From the NCBI RefSeq assembly GCF_000708045.1, contig NZ_ANIE01000005.1, positions 186,001 through 250,000 on the forward strand: a DNA stretch of 64,000 nucleotides, given 5' to 3'. This DNA comes from Marinobacter nitratireducens (GTDB lineage Bacteria; Pseudomonadota; Gammaproteobacteria; Pseudomonadales; Oleiphilaceae). Positions 16,522 to 63,722 of this stretch are shown piece by piece. The notes below the pieces were generated by a model. The model did no database searches, was not told the origin of the DNA, and saw only the letters and a list, made by a program, of their open reading frames with translations. The first letter of the stretch is position 1; the number at the start of each line of letters is the position of its first letter. The translations under genes were made by a program, and so were the position numbers.

Positions 16522-18324
16522 ATGACCGATACCTTGATCGACCGCCGCGACCTGGCATTCCAGCTATACGATGTCCTTGATACCGAGAGCCTGACCGGGC
16601 GCGAACGCTTCAGCGAACACAGTCGTGACACGTTTGATGCGGTCATCGAAACCGCCGACAAGATGGCCAGGGAAAAGTTTGCAACCCACAACAGTGCAGC
16701 CGACAAAGACGAACCAAAGTTCGTTGATGGCAAGGTGGAGATGCTTCCTGAGGTTAAGGAAGCCTTTGATGCCTATGCTGAGGCCGGGTTTATCGCGGGC
16801 CGGTACGATTACGATCTGGGCGGCATGCAATTGCCGGAATCGGTCATGGCGGCCTGTAATGGTTTTTTCACCGCGGCCAACCCGGGTACGGCGGGCTATC
16901 CGTTCCTTACCACCGCAGCGGCAAACCTGATCCGGGTATTTGGAAATGAAAAGCAGAAGGCGACCTTCCTGCCCCACATGCTCTCTGGCCGGTTCACCGG
17001 CACCATGGCGCTGACTGAGCCCCACGCGGGGTCCTCGCTGGCCGATATCCGAACGTCAGCAACGCCGACAGACGACGGCCATTACCTCATCAAGGGAGCC
17101 AAGATCTACATCTCGGGCGGCGAGCAATCCCTTACCGAGAATATCGTTCATATGGTGCTTGCCAAGATCAAAGGCGCACCAGCCGGGGTGAAAGGGATTT
17201 CGTTGTTTGTGGTGCCCAAGTTCCTGGTTGATGACGAAGGCAACGCCACCGAACGCAACGGTGTCAGCCTCGCTGGGTTGATTCACAAACTGGGCTACCG
17301 GGGCACGACTTCCACCGCCCTGAGTTTTGGTGATGACGCACCCTGCCATGGTTATCTGGTAGGTGAGCCGCATCAGGGGCTGAAGTACATGTTCCAGATG
17401 ATGAACGAAGCCCGGGTGGGCGTGGGTTTTGGTGCCGCCGTGATTGGCTACCGCGGGTACATGCACAGCCTTGAATACGCAAAAGACCGCTTGCAGGGCC
17501 GCAAGCCATCGGAAAAGAACCCGGAAGCACCGCAGGTGCCGATCATCGACCACGCCGATGTGCGCCGTATGCTGCTTGCCCAGAAAGCCTACAGCGAGGG
17601 AGGCCTGGCGCTGTGTCTCTACGGTGCAAGGCTGATGGACGATCAGCACACCCATCCGGATGAACAGAAACGCCTGGAAGCCGGGAAGCTGCTTGACCTG
17701 TTGACCCCGGTCATCAAGGCCTGGCCCTCGGAATTCGGCCCCAAAGCCAACGATCTGGCCATTCAGGTTTATGGCGGTGCGGGTTACACCCGGGAGTATC
17801 CGGTGGAACAGTGCTGGCGGGATAACCGTCTCAACCCGATTCACGAGGGCACCAATGGCATCCAGGCCCTGGATCTGCTGGGGCGCAAGATCTGGCAGGA
17901 TCAGAGCCACGGCTTGCAGTTGCTGATGCAGGAAATGCAGGTGGATCTGCAGGCGGCCACCAGCGACCGCTGCCAGCAGTGGGCCCTTTCCCTGAGCGAA
18001 ACCCTTCAGCAGGCAGTGAAGGTTACCCAGAGCCTGGGTAAATCCCTGATGAGCGAGAATCCGGACAACGTTCTGGCAAATGCCTCCTGCTACCTCCATC
18101 TGTTCGGGCACATCATTGTGTCCTGGATGTGGCTGCGCCAGGCCAACGTTGCGGAAAAAGCACTGGCCGCCGCCAGCAACGACGATGACCGCAACTTCTA
18201 CCAGGGCAAGCTGCAAGCCGCCCAGTACTTCTTCCACTGGGAACTGCCGACCGTTGCTCAGGATCTGGTGCTGTTGAAGAACCAGGACGATACCTGCCTG
18301 AACATGAAAGCGGAGTGGTTCTGA
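16522..18324 (+). CDS. Acyl-CoA dehydrogenase (600 aa, FadE-like)
   Basis: This FAD enzyme catalyses the first oxidation of acyl-CoA in beta-oxidation. At 600 residues it belongs to the larger bacterial acyl-CoA dehydrogenases with an extra C-terminal domain, as in the pseudomonad FadE-like and DmdC groups. FAD and substrate motifs include MALTEPHAGSSLADIRTSA near 156-174, and the C-terminal flavin-binding region has YGGAGYTREYPVEQCWRDNR near 417-436. The ribosome site AGGAG sits eight bases before the ATG. The stop overlaps the ATG of the downstream crotonase by one base (TGATG), so the two are translationally coupled. Chain-length range is not determinable. Confidence 0.9.
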   Translation: MTDTLIDRRDLAFQLYDVLDTESLTGRERFSEHSRDTFDAVIETADKMAREKFATHNSAADKDEPKFVDGKVEMLPEVKEAFDAYAEAGFIAGRYDYDLGGMQLPESVMAACNGFFTAANPGTAGYPFLTTAAANLIRVFGNEKQKATFLPHMLSGRFTGTMALTEPHAGSSLADIRTSATPTDDGHYLIKGAKIYISGGEQSLTENIVHMVLAKIKGAPAGVKGISLFVVPKFLVDDEGNATERNGVSLAGLIHKLGYRGTTSTALSFGDDAPCHGYLVGEPHQGLKYMFQMMNEARVGVGFGAAVIGYRGYMHSLEYAKDRLQGRKPSEKNPEAPQVPIIDHADVRRMLLAQKAYSEGGLALCLYGARLMDDQHTHPDEQKRLEAGKLLDLLTPVIKAWPSEFGPKANDLAIQVYGGAGYTREYPVEQCWRDNRLNPIHEGTNGIQALDLLGRKIWQDQSHGLQLLMQEMQVDLQAATSDRCQQWALSLSETLQQAVKVTQSLGKSLMSENPDNVLANASCYLHLFGHIIVSWMWLRQANVAEKALAAASNDDDRNFYQGKLQAAQYFFHWELPTVAQDLVLLKNQDDTCLNMKAEWF

Positions 18325-19103
18325 TGGCTCTGGTTAACGTTGAAAAAAAGGGCCACATACTCCTCATTGGCCTCAATCGTCCGGACAAAATGAACGCCAT
18401 GAACCGGGCCATGTACCACGAAATCGCCGCTGCCTATTACCAGCTGGAGCATGACGACGACTTGCGTGTCGGACTGATGTATGCCGAGGGCGATCACTTC
18501 ACCAGCGGCCTGCAACTGGACGACTGGGCCGGCGTGTTCGCCAACGGAAAAGGCATTGAACCCGGAGACGGTGAACTTGATCCGTTCCACATAACCGGCC
18601 CCGGCCTGAGTAAGCCTGTGGTGTTCGCTGCCCAGGGCATCTGCTTCACCTGCGGCGTGGAGATGATGCTCAACACGGATATCCGGATCGCGGCCAAAGG
18701 CACGCGTTTCGCCCAGCTGGAAGTAAAACGCGGCATCTTTGCCTGCGGTGGCGCCACCATCCGGTTGCCTCGAGAGATTGGTTGGGGCAACGCCCAGCGC
18801 TACCTGCTCACCGGAGACGAGTGGACCGCAGAACAGGCCTACGATTGGGGCCTGGTCCAGGAGTTGGTTGAGCCGGGGGCACAATTTGATGTTGCGATGA
18901 CTATTGCCGAGAAAATTTCAAAAGCGGCGCCCCTTGGCGTTCGCGGAAGCCTTAAATCCTCAAAGATCTCTGTGAGTGAGGGGCAGGAGGCTGCAAAACA
19001 GAAGCTGTTTCCGGAGTTGCAGCCTGTAATGGCCAGTGAGGACGTCAAAGAGGGAATTCAGTCTTTCCTGGAAAGGCGGGACGCTGTTTTCAGAGGTAAA
19101 TGA
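18324..19103 (+). CDS. Crotonase/enoyl-CoA hydratase family protein
   Basis: This probable enoyl-CoA hydratase or isomerase works with the coupled dehydrogenase. The crotonase fold is shown by an oxyanion-hole segment (EGDHFTSGLQL near 54-64) and the second block CGVEMMLNTDIRIAAKG near 111-127. A third block, FAQLEVKRGIFACGGATIRL, follows near 130-149. Glutamates occur near both usual catalytic positions (VEMM and LEVK), so hydratase chemistry is possible. The start is placed at the ATG overlapping the upstream stop; a GTG nine bases earlier is also in frame. A terminator-like repeat element (19137-19244) follows. Confidence 0.85.
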   Translation: MALVNVEKKGHILLIGLNRPDKMNAMNRAMYHEIAAAYYQLEHDDDLRVGLMYAEGDHFTSGLQLDDWAGVFANGKGIEPGDGELDPFHITGPGLSKPVVFAAQGICFTCGVEMMLNTDIRIAAKGTRFAQLEVKRGIFACGGATIRLPREIGWGNAQRYLLTGDEWTAEQAYDWGLVQELVEPGAQFDVAMTIAEKISKAAPLGVRGSLKSSKISVSEGQEAAKQKLFPELQPVMASEDVKEGIQSFLERRDAVFRGK

Positions 19104-19136: not shown

Positions 19137-19244
19137 GCGCCCGACGCTCATGCTCCCCCAAGACTGTGTGCAGCAGGGAAGCTGCACACAAGCCTACATG
19201 GACGTATTCACGGCGTGTCTTGGGGGAGCATGAGTGTTGGGCGC
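19137..19244. repeat. Long-stem intergenic repeat, subtype II copy
   Basis: The left arm (19137-19163) is complementary to the right arm (19218-19244) over 27 positions. Two are G-T pairs (stable as G-U in RNA) and none is a true mismatch. The 54-nt core (19164-19217) contains its own perfect 10-bp hairpin, TGTGTGCAGC with GCTGCACACA. The core half AAGC-N2-ACATGGA-N-GT aligns with the minus-strand cores of the three elements at 58553, 58733 and 63609, so it is a diverged relative. It fills the gap between the convergent crotonase and alkB genes and could serve as a terminator for both. Confidence 0.8.
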
Positions 19245-19257
19245 TTGCACCTGTTCC

Positions 19258-20508
19258 TCAGGCTGCCTGCTCCCCGGACTCATCAGCATGGCGAGCCGCC
19301 ACCTCAGCCGCATAGTCGGCATACTTCGCCATCAGCTCTTCCTTGCGGTCCGGGTCCCAGTTGATCTTGCTCAGGTCGCCCTTGTAGTGATCAATCACCC
19401 GCTTGTCCATTTCCTCGTACCACCACTTGGGAACGTACGCCGGCAACAGCATAGAAGCGTATCCGCCGGGCAGTTGGGGCGCGTTCTCGAAGTGGCGCAG
19501 TGCCTGGAAACTCCGGGTCGGGTGAGCATGATGGTCCGAATGGCGCTGTAGCTGGTACAGGAACAGGTTGGTCACGATGTGATTGCTGTTCCAGCTGTGC
19601 TCCGGCTGAGTGCGCTCGTACTTGCCATTCTTGTCTTTCTGGCGCAGCAAGCCGTAATGCTCGATGTAGTTCACGCTCTCCAGCAAACTTGCGCCATAGA
19701 CCGCTTGCGCGGCCAGGAACGGCACAGCTCGGGGGCCGCACACCAGAGTGGTTGCGCCGAAGAAGCCAGCGCTCATGGCCCAGCCCTGCAGCAACTCATT
19801 GTCGAGACTCCAGAAGCCTTTACCCTTGCGGGCAAGCCTCGCCTTCTCAATCTTGATGGACGACTTGATCCCGCCAACCACCGTCCGGGGCAGGAACTTC
19901 CAGAAGCTCTCACCCATGCGGCTGCTTGCCGGGTCTTCGGGGGTTGCCACGCGCTTGTGATGACCAAAATTGTGCTCAACCACAAAGTGGGTGTAGCCGG
20001 TCGGCGCCAGCGCTGCCATGGCCATCAACTTATTCAGCTTGTTCGACTTGTGACCCAGCTCATGCGCGGTGTTGATGCCGACACCGTTAATGGCACCCAC
20101 GGTGAGTGTCAGTCCGATCTTGTCTTCCAGAGGCGTCTTTTTCCGGCTGGCCAACCAAGCGCCCATGAAGGTCATAGCATATTGGGTGGGAATGAAGGCC
20201 TTTACGATTCGCTCGTAGTACTTGTCCTGCTCCAGAGGCTTGACGGCCGACTCCGGCGGGTTGCTTTTGTCCTCGCCGATTGCACGATCCAGCGCCGGGA
20301 TGATGCCGTGAACCAGGGCCGGTCCGGTCCAGGCCAGGGCCTTGAGCTTCTTGGGCGCCAGTGCATACCCGGTCAGCGCCGCCAGGCCAATACCTGGAAG
20401 AGCCGGGCCCAGTAGCCACATATACCGTTTGGGGTCCTTCCAGTCCGTTTCAGGAGCCGATTGCTGTACCGACTGTGCAATGTTGGGATCGCGGGTCTTG
20501 GCATTCAT
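19258..20508 (-). CDS. alkB: Alkane 1-monooxygenase
   Basis: This integral-membrane non-heme diiron enzyme hydroxylates the terminal carbon of medium-chain n-alkanes, with electrons from rubredoxin. The 416 residues contain the histidine motifs HELGH (149-153), EHNFGHH (178-184), NYIEHYG (280-286) and LQRHSDHHA (321-329), which are the AlkB signatures. Several transmembrane segments lie before residue 150 and at 245-275. GGAG lies eight bases before the ATG. Rubredoxin and rubredoxin reductase genes are not adjacent and must be elsewhere. A candidate promoter lies at 20532-20567. Together with the acyl-CoA ligase at 4681 this supports alkane growth. Confidence 0.95.
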   Translation of the reverse strand: MNAKTRDPNIAQSVQQSAPETDWKDPKRYMWLLGPALPGIGLAALTGYALAPKKLKALAWTGPALVHGIIPALDRAIGEDKSNPPESAVKPLEQDKYYERIVKAFIPTQYAMTFMGAWLASRKKTPLEDKIGLTLTVGAINGVGINTAHELGHKSNKLNKLMAMAALAPTGYTHFVVEHNFGHHKRVATPEDPASSRMGESFWKFLPRTVVGGIKSSIKIEKARLARKGKGFWSLDNELLQGWAMSAGFFGATTLVCGPRAVPFLAAQAVYGASLLESVNYIEHYGLLRQKDKNGKYERTQPEHSWNSNHIVTNLFLYQLQRHSDHHAHPTRSFQALRHFENAPQLPGGYASMLLPAYVPKWWYEEMDKRVIDHYKGDLSKINWDPDRKEELMAKYADYAAEVAARHADESGEQAA

Positions 20509-30171: not shown

Positions 30172-31695
30172 ATGAACACAAACACAATAAAATGGTCTAT
30201 GGCGCTGTTGCTGGCGCTGGTTGTTGGGCTCACTGGTTGCCGATCAGATAGCGCCCCGGGCGGAACTTCAGGCGGCGGTGCCGTCGGCGGTGACACTCAG
30301 GTTTTCGATGAAGACGGTGATGGCATTCCCGATAATGAGGATTCCTGTCCGACAGTTGTCAATTCTGGCGTTGATGCGGACGCAGATGGCATTGACGATG
30401 CGTGTGACACTGACATCGGCTCGACGTCTGATGAGGACGGTGACGGTGTGCCTAACGGCGATGATAACTGCCCAACGGTTGCCAATGCTGATCAGGCAAA
30501 CAAGGATTCAGACCTTGTTGGGGATGCCTGTGACACCGACGCTGACGGTGATGGCGTTGCCGATAAGACTGACAACGGTGATGGCACCTTCAGTGCGATC
30601 GATCCAGCGAGCGGTGGCGACAACTGCCCACTGACACCGAACGAAAGTCAGTCTGACTTCGACAGCGATAACGTTGGCAACGCCTGTGACACCGATGCCG
30701 ATGGCGATGGTGTTGCTGATAAGACGGATAATGGTGATGGAACCTTCACCACTATCGACCCGGCTAGCGGCGGCGATAACTGCCCGCTCGTGGCGAATAA
30801 CAGTCAGGCAGATGCGGATGGCGACAATATCGGTGATGCCTGCGATACCGATAACGTAGCGGACAGCGACGGCGATGGCATCCCTGATTTCGAAAGCGAT
30901 GGCACCACGCCGCTCGACAACTGTCCGAATACGGTAAACCCCGACCAGGAAGACCTGGACGGTGACGGTGTTGGTGATGTGTGTGATGCAGACACTGACG
31001 GAGATGGTATTGACGATGAAAACCTGCTTGGGCAACCGAATGACAACTGCCCGCGCGTAGCCAACCCCGACCAGGCAGATTCTGATGGTGACGGTATCGG
31101 CGATGCCTGTGACCTGGTTGACGATGCCGCCTACGCCTGCGCTGTATCCGGTGAACAGTTCTCACCAATGCTTGCCAGTGACACCGATCTCAATGCCACA
31201 GCAACCGCCGATACGTCGGGTTGTTTGCTTGGACTCGGGCTGATCTGTGATGTGCAGAACGCCGGTAATGTCGTCGACGATGATCTGACGAACCAGGCCA
31301 CCATGCGAAATACCGATCTGTTGGGCCTCTCTACCGTGAAACTCCGCGTGGCGGCGACATCCGGTTTCGCATACCCTGCCTCCAATGCCGTGGGCATCGC
31401 ATTCAACGAGAGTCCGCAGTTGCTGCAGGCTGATCTTCTCGGCGGCGACCTGATCGTTCGTACGGTGCTGAATGGCGTGACCCAGGAAGAAAGTAACGGA
31501 GAGGGCATTCTGGACCTGGATCTTCTGGGTGCCTCCGGTGTGCTGGATGGCTCAGATACCAGTTTCCTGGTGTTCCAGACCGACAAGCGTTTTGACAGTG
31601 TTGAGGTGGAGTTTGCGCCGTCGCTGCTGTCATTGCTGAATGAAGTGAATGTGAATGCGGTATGTGCGAGCAAAACCGACGTGCCGTTGCTCTAA
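30172..31695 (+). CDS. Thrombospondin type 3 repeat lipoprotein
   Basis: The protein starts with a signal peptide and lipobox LTGC (Cys23), then a Gly-rich linker. Residues 46-315 consist of about seven calcium-binding TSP3 units (DxDxDGxxD followed by DNCPxxxNxxQ). Two 34-residue blocks, 121-154 and 173-206, are almost identical in protein. The C-terminal 190 residues form a separate, probably beta-rich domain with a disulfide-capable pair near Cys211-type positions. The start is the ATG at 30172, after GGGAG. It follows the OmpA-type gene in an operon and likely sits on the outer-membrane or cell surface as a calcium-stiffened stalk. The function of the C-terminal domain is unknown. Confidence 0.85.
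   Translation: MNTNTIKWSMALLLALVVGLTGCRSDSAPGGTSGGGAVGGDTQVFDEDGDGIPDNEDSCPTVVNSGVDADADGIDDACDTDIGSTSDEDGDGVPNGDDNCPTVANADQANKDSDLVGDACDTDADGDGVADKTDNGDGTFSAIDPASGGDNCPLTPNESQSDFDSDNVGNACDTDADGDGVADKTDNGDGTFTTIDPASGGDNCPLVANNSQADADGDNIGDACDTDNVADSDGDGIPDFESDGTTPLDNCPNTVNPDQEDLDGDGVGDVCDADTDGDGIDDENLLGQPNDNCPRVANPDQADSDGDGIGDACDLVDDAAYACAVSGEQFSPMLASDTDLNATATADTSGCLLGLGLICDVQNAGNVVDDDLTNQATMRNTDLLGLSTVKLRVAATSGFAYPASNAVGIAFNESPQLLQADLLGGDLIVRTVLNGVTQEESNGEGILDLDLLGASGVLDGSDTSFLVFQTDKRFDSVEVEFAPSLLSLLNEVNVNAVCASKTDVPLL
30532..30789 (+). repeat. Tandem coding repeat within the TSP3 lipoprotein
   Basis: Two blocks, 30532-30633 and 30688-30789, encode 34 residues that differ at only two positions (SA versus TT after GDGTF). 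The nucleotide copies differ at many third codon positions. The duplication is therefore not recent, and the protein sequence appears conserved by selection. Confidence 0.75.
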
Positions 31696-58552: not shown

Positions 58553-58660
58553 GTGAGAGCGGGCGGCCCCTCCCAAAAACCGCTTCAAGCACGTCCGTGT
58601 GCGCTTGGCTCCGGCCATCCCTGGCCTCCGACATTTTTGGGAGGGGCCGCCCGCCCTCAC
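58553..58660. repeat. Long-stem intergenic repeat, subtype I, forward copy
   Basis: The left arm (58553-58579) and right arm (58634-58660) are complementary over 27 bases with one mismatch; the arms contain GGGCGGCCCCTCCC and its complement. The core (58580-58633) is 54 nt and starts CCGCTTCAAGCACG. In its small inner dyad CACGTCCGTGTG, the two A-T pairs of the other copies (CACATCCATGTG) become G-T pairs, so pairing would be kept in RNA. The left arm begins 35 bases after the quinone oxidoreductase stop. Confidence 0.85.
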
Positions 58661-58732
58661 GAGATTTAACTCCGGCAGGTGTCTCCAGGGAACGATGGGT
58701 TCTAGCGACTTTATCTGAGATGTCTGCTCGCG

Positions 58733-58834
58733 CTGTTGGTTGTTTCCGCCCAAAAATGTGCGGAGCCATGGATGGCGGAGCCCAAGCGCACATGGATGTG
58801 CTCGTAGCGGTTTTTGGGCGGAAACAACCAACAG
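58733..58834. repeat. Long-stem intergenic repeat, subtype I, inverted copy
   Basis: A perfect 24-bp inverted repeat (58733-58756 with 58811-58834, inner part TTTCCGCCCAAAAA) encloses a 54-nt core (58757-58810). Read on the minus strand the core matches the element at 63609-63722 at all but three positions, and the element at 58553 at most positions. The arms are unrelated to those of either. It faces the neighbouring copy head-on between two convergent genes. Confidence 0.85.
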
Positions 58835-58882
58835 TGCAGCCCCCATATACGGCAGGCCAGGAACAAGATAAAACTCCCAACG

Positions 58883-63608: not shown

Positions 63609-63722
63609 GCAGGCGGACCGGATTCTTGGGTCAGAAAACCGCTACGAGCACATCCATGTGAGTTTGGGCTCCGCCATCCATGGCTCCTCACATTTTCTGA
63701 CCCAAGAATCCGGTCCGCCTGC
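63609..63722. repeat. Long-stem intergenic repeat, subtype I, within the atu operon
   Basis: A perfect 30-bp inverted repeat (63609-63638 with 63693-63722; inner part CTTGGGTCAGAAAA) encloses the conserved 54-nt core (63639-63692). It contains the dyads CACATCCATGTG and CCATCCATGG. It sits between two genes transcribed in the same direction, so RNA polymerase must cross it if they form one operon. Confidence 0.85.

Follow-up and report, generated by a model that had tools for sequence, protein, structure and literature searches.

A dispersed intergenic repeat of Marinobacter as a predicted CsrA-binding RNA module

The 64-kb stretch of Marinobacter nitratireducens DNA that was analysed (the window) carries at 19137-19244 one copy of an element present in tens of copies in the same genome (the home genome), in which a conserved core is enclosed by arms that vary between copies. 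The element is likely to be a dispersed RNA module, predicted from its sequence to bind CsrA, that spread at least sometimes as a miniature transposon (MITE). This reading is founded on the sequence, the structure obtained from covariation, the strand bias of the mismatches, the loop motif, the presence of a csrA gene and the target duplications found in Desulfopila.

The copy between the presumed hydratase and alkane monooxygenase genes

The features of the copy, its neighbours and the other copies in the window are the following.

18315..19103, + strand: gene ending 33 nt before the element, product presumably enoyl-CoA hydratase-like
19137..19244, + strand: element copy, an inverted repeat whose + strand is the ANGGA strand
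19137..19164, + strand: left arm of the outer stem (28 bp)
19165..19190, + strand: hairpin 1, perfect 10-bp stem, loop AGGGAA at 19175-19180 (first ANGGA site)
19192..19214, + strand: hairpin 2, GCC UAC, loop AUGGAC, GUA, UUCAC bulge, GGC; loop at 19198-19203 (second ANGGA site)
19217..19244, + strand: right arm of the outer stem, forming 26 Watson-Crick and 2 G-U pairs with the left arm
19258..20508, - strand: convergent gene ending 13 nt beyond the element, product taken to be alkane 1-monooxygenase (alkB)-like
58553..58660, - strand: second copy, member of a close pair (model match G000:C5:244558-244655, -)
58730..58837, + strand: third copy, its partner in the close pair (model match G000:C5:244735-244832, +)
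63609..63722, - strand: fourth copy, with a perfect 30-bp outer stem (model match G000:C5:249617-249714, -)

The inverted repeat at 19137-19244 is real, chance being excluded because of the folding energy of this copy and the inverted repeats found at core loci in comparison to control positions (see below). The + strand folds at -82.4 kcal/mol against a mean of -39.3 for shuffled sequences (z = -11.9), and the opposite strand folds well too (z = -11.3). The earlier note had given these coordinates, two G-T deviations in the stem and a perfect inner hairpin of 10 bp, and all three were borne out: 26 Watson-Crick and two G-T pairs join the arms, and 19165-19174 pairs with 19181-19190 without a fault. 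The stem had been described as having 27 positions; its span is the same, with arms of 28 and not 27 nt. These arms enclose a 52-nt core, and the 54 nt quoted for it include the innermost C-G pair of the stem. In the alignment the core of this copy is 2 nt shorter than in other copies, the difference lying in hairpin 1.

The inner hairpin had been regarded as an addition to the usual repeat. It is in fact the first of two ANGGA hairpins, built here of ordinary pairs, and no addition, since the same hairpin in 63 of the 71 home copies has its first departure from standard pairing, counting down from the first ANGGA loop, at an A opposite a G. That the core apparently consists of two hairpins with ANGGA loops of the CsrA type was missed by the earlier reader.

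Folded alone, hairpin 1 of this copy reached -17.3 kcal/mol and hairpin 2, with its asymmetric bulge of about 5 nt, -3.2 kcal/mol. Within the full element the probability of the closing pair of hairpin 1 (19174-19181) was 0.998 and that of the hairpin 2 pairs only 0.10-0.27, the minimum-free-energy fold being devoid of hairpin 2. The helix of hairpin 2 is backed by pairing across copies (helices 4 and 5 of the covariation analysis).

No T run was found directly 3' of 19244, so the copy does not have the stem followed by a T run that marks an intrinsic terminator. This counts against a structural 3'-end element that works without CsrA, with the stem as a two-way terminator or exonuclease barrier and the core serving folding or another protein. 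Moreover, the stem alone leaves unexplained why there are two GGA loops at nearly fixed spacing with a free N separating A from GG. Such an element seems rather unlikely; the evidence from gene contexts that bears on it is given below.

The search of the whole 64-kb window against Rfam at gathering thresholds gave no match, CsrB, RsmY and RsmZ included. At 30306-31112 the window also contains DNA repeats (families D1-D3) that apparently encode acidic D-rich repeats.

Pairing, strand preference and loop motifs across copies

A core pattern of 20 bases with up to 2 mismatches was matched 32 times in the home genome and not once by the reversed control. Inverted repeats of 26-30 nt round the core (score 22-30) were present at 29 of the 30 core-pattern loci read with their DNA and the remaining locus scored 5, in comparison to 600 control positions with one score of 18 and all others of 9 or less. 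These 29 aligned home-genome copies were used to build a covariance model, which found 71 copies at E <= 0.01 in the home genome (3.89 Mb; 150 of 1020 candidates scored), a few of them with short or broken arms. The core length in this genome was 52-58 nt, with 54 nt in 34 of 71 copies. The outer stem there is 27-28 bp long and has a sharp end: a Watson-Crick pair is formed at stem position 27 in 85 % of home copies, at position 28 in 61 % and at position 29 in 25 %. The claim that the geometry is kept despite divergence therefore holds for the stem, whereas the core varies by a few nucleotides.

The middle of the outer stem shows almost no common sequence among the 29 aligned copies, yet its cells are paired in 99.2 % of cases, and changes on both sides were seen at 21 of the 22 pairs modelled there. 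In the analysis of stem covariation 96.9 % of cells were paired, and 312 double changes were counted versus 87.5 in shuffles. Together with the mismatches described next, these numbers strongly uphold the earlier note, which suggested that the arms and core diverge without loss of RNA pairing.

Mismatches were counted over 25 bp of the outer stem in each of the 71 home copies, in a register chosen by Watson-Crick pairs only. Of 1775 cells 120 were non-Watson-Crick and, as read on the ANGGA strand, 69 were G-U and 10 A-C (p = 5.5e-12); G-U outnumbered A-C in 39 elements and the reverse was true for 2. The 78 elements labelled as other genera, examined over 22 bp each, gave 47 G-U and 8 A-C (p = 8e-8). 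Strand-biased mutation from transcription does not explain the excess, because its sign was the same in every orientation to the neighbouring genes (G-U:A-C of 20:4 for sense, 12:4 for antisense, 29:2 for convergent and 7:0 for divergent home copies). On these sequence data selection seems to act on the RNA of the ANGGA strand, a reading that the G-U excess favours over DNA cruciforms, arm-to-arm copying and an RNA of the other strand.

Arm-to-arm copying could occur by template switching in replication, the pairing then being a mutational by-product. Such copying should give perfect palindromes, and G-U and A-C in equal numbers instead of the 69:10 and 47:8 observed, and the sharp end of the stem at 27-28 bp speaks against it as well. 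The mismatch asymmetry largely refutes template switching, which is a most improbable source of the pairing. It may supply some of the double changes: L084 and L085, two loci at the alkB site of congeners (alkB 88.5 % identical), have the outer 13 bp nearly unchanged and 7 pairs of the inner half changed on both sides, a cluster that could arise in one copying event.

At least two ANGGA motifs are present on the element strand of 68 of the 71 home cores and one in the other three, and the opposite strand has ANGGA in none of the 71 copies. In all 54 home copies whose cores contain only two such motifs, the spacing between them is 23-25 nt. A third ANGGA occurs further on in 14 of the 71 copies, where the sequence would allow one more hairpin. 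Outside the home genus, where 78 of 79 matches were refined, two motifs were found in 64 cores, three in 2, one in 11 and none in 1. On the 3' side of the ANGGA strand, a weak C-rich motif was noticed at about 32-35 nt from the core in the set of 71 home copies.

The copy at 19137-19244 had been set apart as a second subtype of the repeat, and further copies of this kind do exist. Seven or more contiguous pairs under the first ANGGA loop were found in six of the 71 home copies, 19137-19244 among them, with cores of 52-57 nt. The genus search, as counted by eye, gave at least 62 core-only matches to this copy in other congeners, 80-93 % identical.

Distribution, genomic position and mobility

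In the genus sample matches were present in 60 of 61 genomes, from 3 to at least 67 per genome, and the congener G048 had no element match. In the order sample, home genus included, where 14 candidates were scored in each genome, 111 of 293 genomes had matches at E <= 1e-5, and these came from 53 of the 118 genera. In the class sample, with 11 candidates scored in each genome, 64 of 369 genomes had matches at E <= 1e-6. The 80 named core-pattern loci among those listed comprised 54 from Marinobacter and 26 from outside it; of these 26 the covariance model supported 15 of 17 (not L180 and L187) and then 1 of 9 (L241). Halomonas, Saccharospirillum, Idiomarina, Sedimenticola and Desulfopila are among the non-Marinobacter sources of model-supported loci. 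Carriage by phages was considered and rejected: 34 viral contigs matched the core pattern, and these matches are ascribed to chance because the covariance model supported none of the 34.

Gene contexts were assigned with a simple codon-based gene finder trained on the window. By this method the neighbours are tandem genes for 36 of the 71 home copies, convergent genes for 23 and divergent genes for 9, and 3 copies were unplaced. Of the 36 tandem copies, 27 have their modelled start 11-60 nt past the upstream stop codon, a position that suits the structural 3'-end element introduced above, as does the location of 23 of the 68 placed copies between convergent genes. The convergent enrichment is not significant when compared with the 10 of 55 gene pairs of the window (p = 0.066). 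The tandem copies showed no strand bias relative to the upstream gene (22 sense, 14 antisense, p = 0.24), which counts against the reading as a CsrA-binding module at gene ends since an obligatory 3'-UTR element should be biased.

Copies also occur in close pairs. Nine pairs within 300 nt were found in the home genome, including that at 58553-58837 of the window, and in all nine the left copy is on the minus and the right one on the plus strand. Another 12 close pairs recognised by eye in other genomes were all minus-then-plus too, three of these loci being from one genus and maybe non-independent. An RNA reading through such a pair would carry an antisense core and then a sense core.

To follow the conservation of the copy at 19137-19244, the alkB site was read at the 30 best of the loci that matched in the genus sample. 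Of the 30, 20 retain an intact inverted repeat around a core of this type, 17 in the same orientation and 3 reversed; among the 22 loci with an adjoining hydratase gene, 18 retain it. Among the 10 loci without an intact element, an insertion of about 90 nt splits the core of L104 (G027) and L106 (G022) at the hairpin 2 loop, a 40-bp gap with a plain hairpin was present in L107 and L108, terminator-like hairpins were seen in L088, L090 and L093, and nothing obvious in L103, L109 and L110. In L104 the GGA of hairpin 1 was seen to be lost as well. A plain terminator-like hairpin in place of the element at an orthologous site (L107, L108, L088 and L090) is a further point in favour of the structural 3'-end element.

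Loci L089, L092 and L097, from three species, had identical 26-bp arms despite alkB differing by 10-15 %, and more distant pairs differed mostly by double changes. The stems of L089 and L100 were distinguished by 7 double changes, 1 one-sided change and no broken pair, those of L082 and L083 by 5 double changes and 4 broken pairs.

Evidence for mobility came from Desulfopila sp. IMCC35006 (G709), which has at least 106 element matches. Both end motifs were recognised in 46 of the 50 copies read, with a length of 167-171 nt end to end and inverted ends near CTGATTACC...GGTAATCAG (L374, L377, L380, L382-L421). Flanking direct repeats with a score of at least 7 were present in 40 of these 46 copies, as opposed to 2.4 % of 2000 mismatched flank pairs, and correspond to target duplications of about 10 bp, mostly AT-rich. 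The inverted ends and target duplications make the element the interior of a MITE in Desulfopila. The copy at L380 is seemingly inserted into another copy. In Idiomarina (G710), the similar copies L362 and L364 share longer outer inverted repeats beyond the usual stem, namely GGCAGGTTGTTCACTTGT and near its complement.

In the home genome none of 66 copies had a direct or inverted flank match of score 10 or more, so the hallmarks of a MITE were not detected there; presumably the home copies are older insertions by transposition whose ends have since decayed. The Desulfopila ends, the duplications and copy number, as well as match counts that range from 0 to at least 67 within one genus, would all suit a purely selfish miniature transposon, whose palindrome and core serve transposition as a DNA hairpin or transposase site at no benefit to the cell. 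Such an element should not prefer G-U over A-C, which points to one RNA strand and not to DNA pairing. It also fits poorly with the intact element at the alkB site of 20 of 30 congener loci, with arms kept identical in three species while alkB diverged, and with a home genome in which no ends are visible. On balance a purely selfish transposon is improbable, more so than the structural 3'-end element. A wider and more tentative proposal is that in many Gammaproteobacteria and some Desulfobacterota CsrA-docking RNAs were repeatedly placed behind genes by miniature transposons, which would thereby have built a genome-wide CsrA reservoir sized by the number of host genes being transcribed, and that lineages tune Csr by gain and loss of copies.

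The CsrA reading and comparison with known systems

SELEX with CsrA gave the consensus RUACARGGAUGU, in which AC pairs with GU to close what is usually a loop of six nt (PMC7652899). For RsmE the proposed high-affinity site is an ANGGAX hexaloop that sits directly on a stem and has variable N and X (PMC4005645). Hairpin 2 reads ACANGGAYGU in 28 of the 29 aligned copies and fits the SELEX consensus apart from the R position, where its N is often U or C. In most copies both hairpins fit the consensus of an ANGGAX hexaloop on a stem, so that the hexaloops come in pairs.

The home genome has one csrA gene, encoding an intact protein. In the class sample, among genomes at least 90 % complete, csrA was found in 53 of 54 with the element versus 227 of 260 without it (p = 0.015), and among all 369 genomes in 59 of 64 versus 254 of 305 (p = 0.08); genome handles were matched by eye and kinship is ignored in both p values. 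G538 (98 % complete) has 7 element matches but no csrA match, and the same combination was met in the less complete G351, G412, G443 and G684.

From these data we infer that the elements are transcribed and bind CsrA. The ANGGA strand (+ at 19137-19244) would give a structured RNA module, which would fold, in transcripts that extend across the 3' end of a gene next to it, into a 27-28-bp stem with a three-way junction on top and two short ANGGAX-hexaloop hairpins. A CsrA dimer would be expected to grip both hexaloops, mostly 23-25 nt apart, with one in each of its RNA pockets. The long stem would present the hexaloop pair and probably also mark or protect the RNA end, and its sequence would be free as long as pairing holds, hence arms that differ round a conserved core. 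Dozens of copies per genome would jointly form a reservoir of CsrA-binding sites, spread over the genome and linked to the output of many genes, and in this way the elements may affect CsrA activity or RNA ends. The module would spread as the interior of a miniature transposon, as seen in Desulfopila, and later copies would age and lose their ends. Several points stand against a CsrA module: the weakness of hairpin 2 in the context of 19137-19244, a copy that RF01731 leaves unmatched at E <= 10, the genome G048 without the element, and the home genome without terminal repeats or target duplications.

RF01731, the TwoAYGGAY RNA, is the closest of the known families compared. It gave 39 full-length matches in the home genome, 25 of them with E < 0.01 and the best at 41.6 bits; none of the 39 reached the gathering threshold of 43 bits, so the element is not a member of RF01731. 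The copy at 19137-19244 gave no match at E <= 10, and the lax search also produced a below-cut-off match in 1 of 14 control genomes. According to the available part of Weinberg 2010 (PMC2864571), TwoAYGGAY is probably an RNA, probably not cis-regulatory, and was found in human gut, Gammaproteobacteria and Clostridiales. Binding of CsrA by TwoAYGGAY was proposed, without a test there, in the accessible text of Gardner and Eldai 2015 (PMC4333381), and the available text on Rfam 15 (PMC11701678) places the family among those with improved covariation.

Both RNAs have an outer stem around two hairpins, whose loops, of the broad type A-Y/N-GGA-Y, follow one another in the same order, and the A-G opposition of the first stem recurs here in 63 of 71 copies. 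The counterparts of the AYGGAY loops would be the ANGGA motifs, of which 68 of 71 home cores have at least two, but the second position is often A or G as in AGGGAA of hairpin 1 at 19137-19244, which has 10 straight pairs in place of the tandem G-A pairs typical of RF01731. The external stem of TwoAYGGAY was described in the accessible text of PMC4333381 as not well conserved, whereas that of the element is 27-28 bp long with strong covariation; this would explain the apparently poor conservation of the TwoAYGGAY stem, in which the pairing is kept and the sequence is not. High copy number, 3'-intergenic position and mobility are, relative to the available descriptions of TwoAYGGAY, further features of the element. 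From sequence and structure it is best called a related, diverged variant of TwoAYGGAY and, if the CsrA reading is right, would work like it.

In the open-licence literature no description of such elements as dispersed CsrA-binding repeats was found, and the accessible parts of PMC9788540, PMC4383904 and PMC12889724 contain nothing on such elements. As far as the searches of that literature show, what is new is the strand bias seen in the external stem, the MITE form, the high number of copies and, for one subtype, the presence of a third motif.

Other candidates were tried and rejected. Matches of the element to microRNAs and other eukaryotic Rfam families were below cut-off and result from the long hairpin alone, and integron attC sites and REP/RAYT elements were discounted on structural grounds, the ends being variable.

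The sponge RNAs CsrB, RsmY and RsmZ likewise have hairpins with GGA loops expected to bind CsrA, but they are dedicated genes with many sites, whereas the element has 2-3 sites on one long stem and tens of dispersed copies. CsrA is a global regulator whose titration is usually ascribed to a few dedicated small RNAs; should it be bound by tens of intergenic copies as well, the accounting of free CsrA in these bacteria changes. Bacterial MITEs resemble the Desulfopila form in their inverted ends and target duplications, with a length of 167-171 nt and at least 106 copies there, but the interior of the element is an RNA structure with a strand-specific mismatch bias in its relatives, and its ends are undetectable in the home genome. 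A transposable RNA carrying the binding site of a regulator would show how fast a network can be rewired. The CsrA reading would give a likely function to this family of repeats, which otherwise resembles junk palindromes. With REP/REPIN and ERIC-type palindromes the element has in common a short palindromic form, an intergenic position and tens of copies. Conservation falls on the palindrome itself in REPs, but on the loop region in the element, whose palindrome is free.
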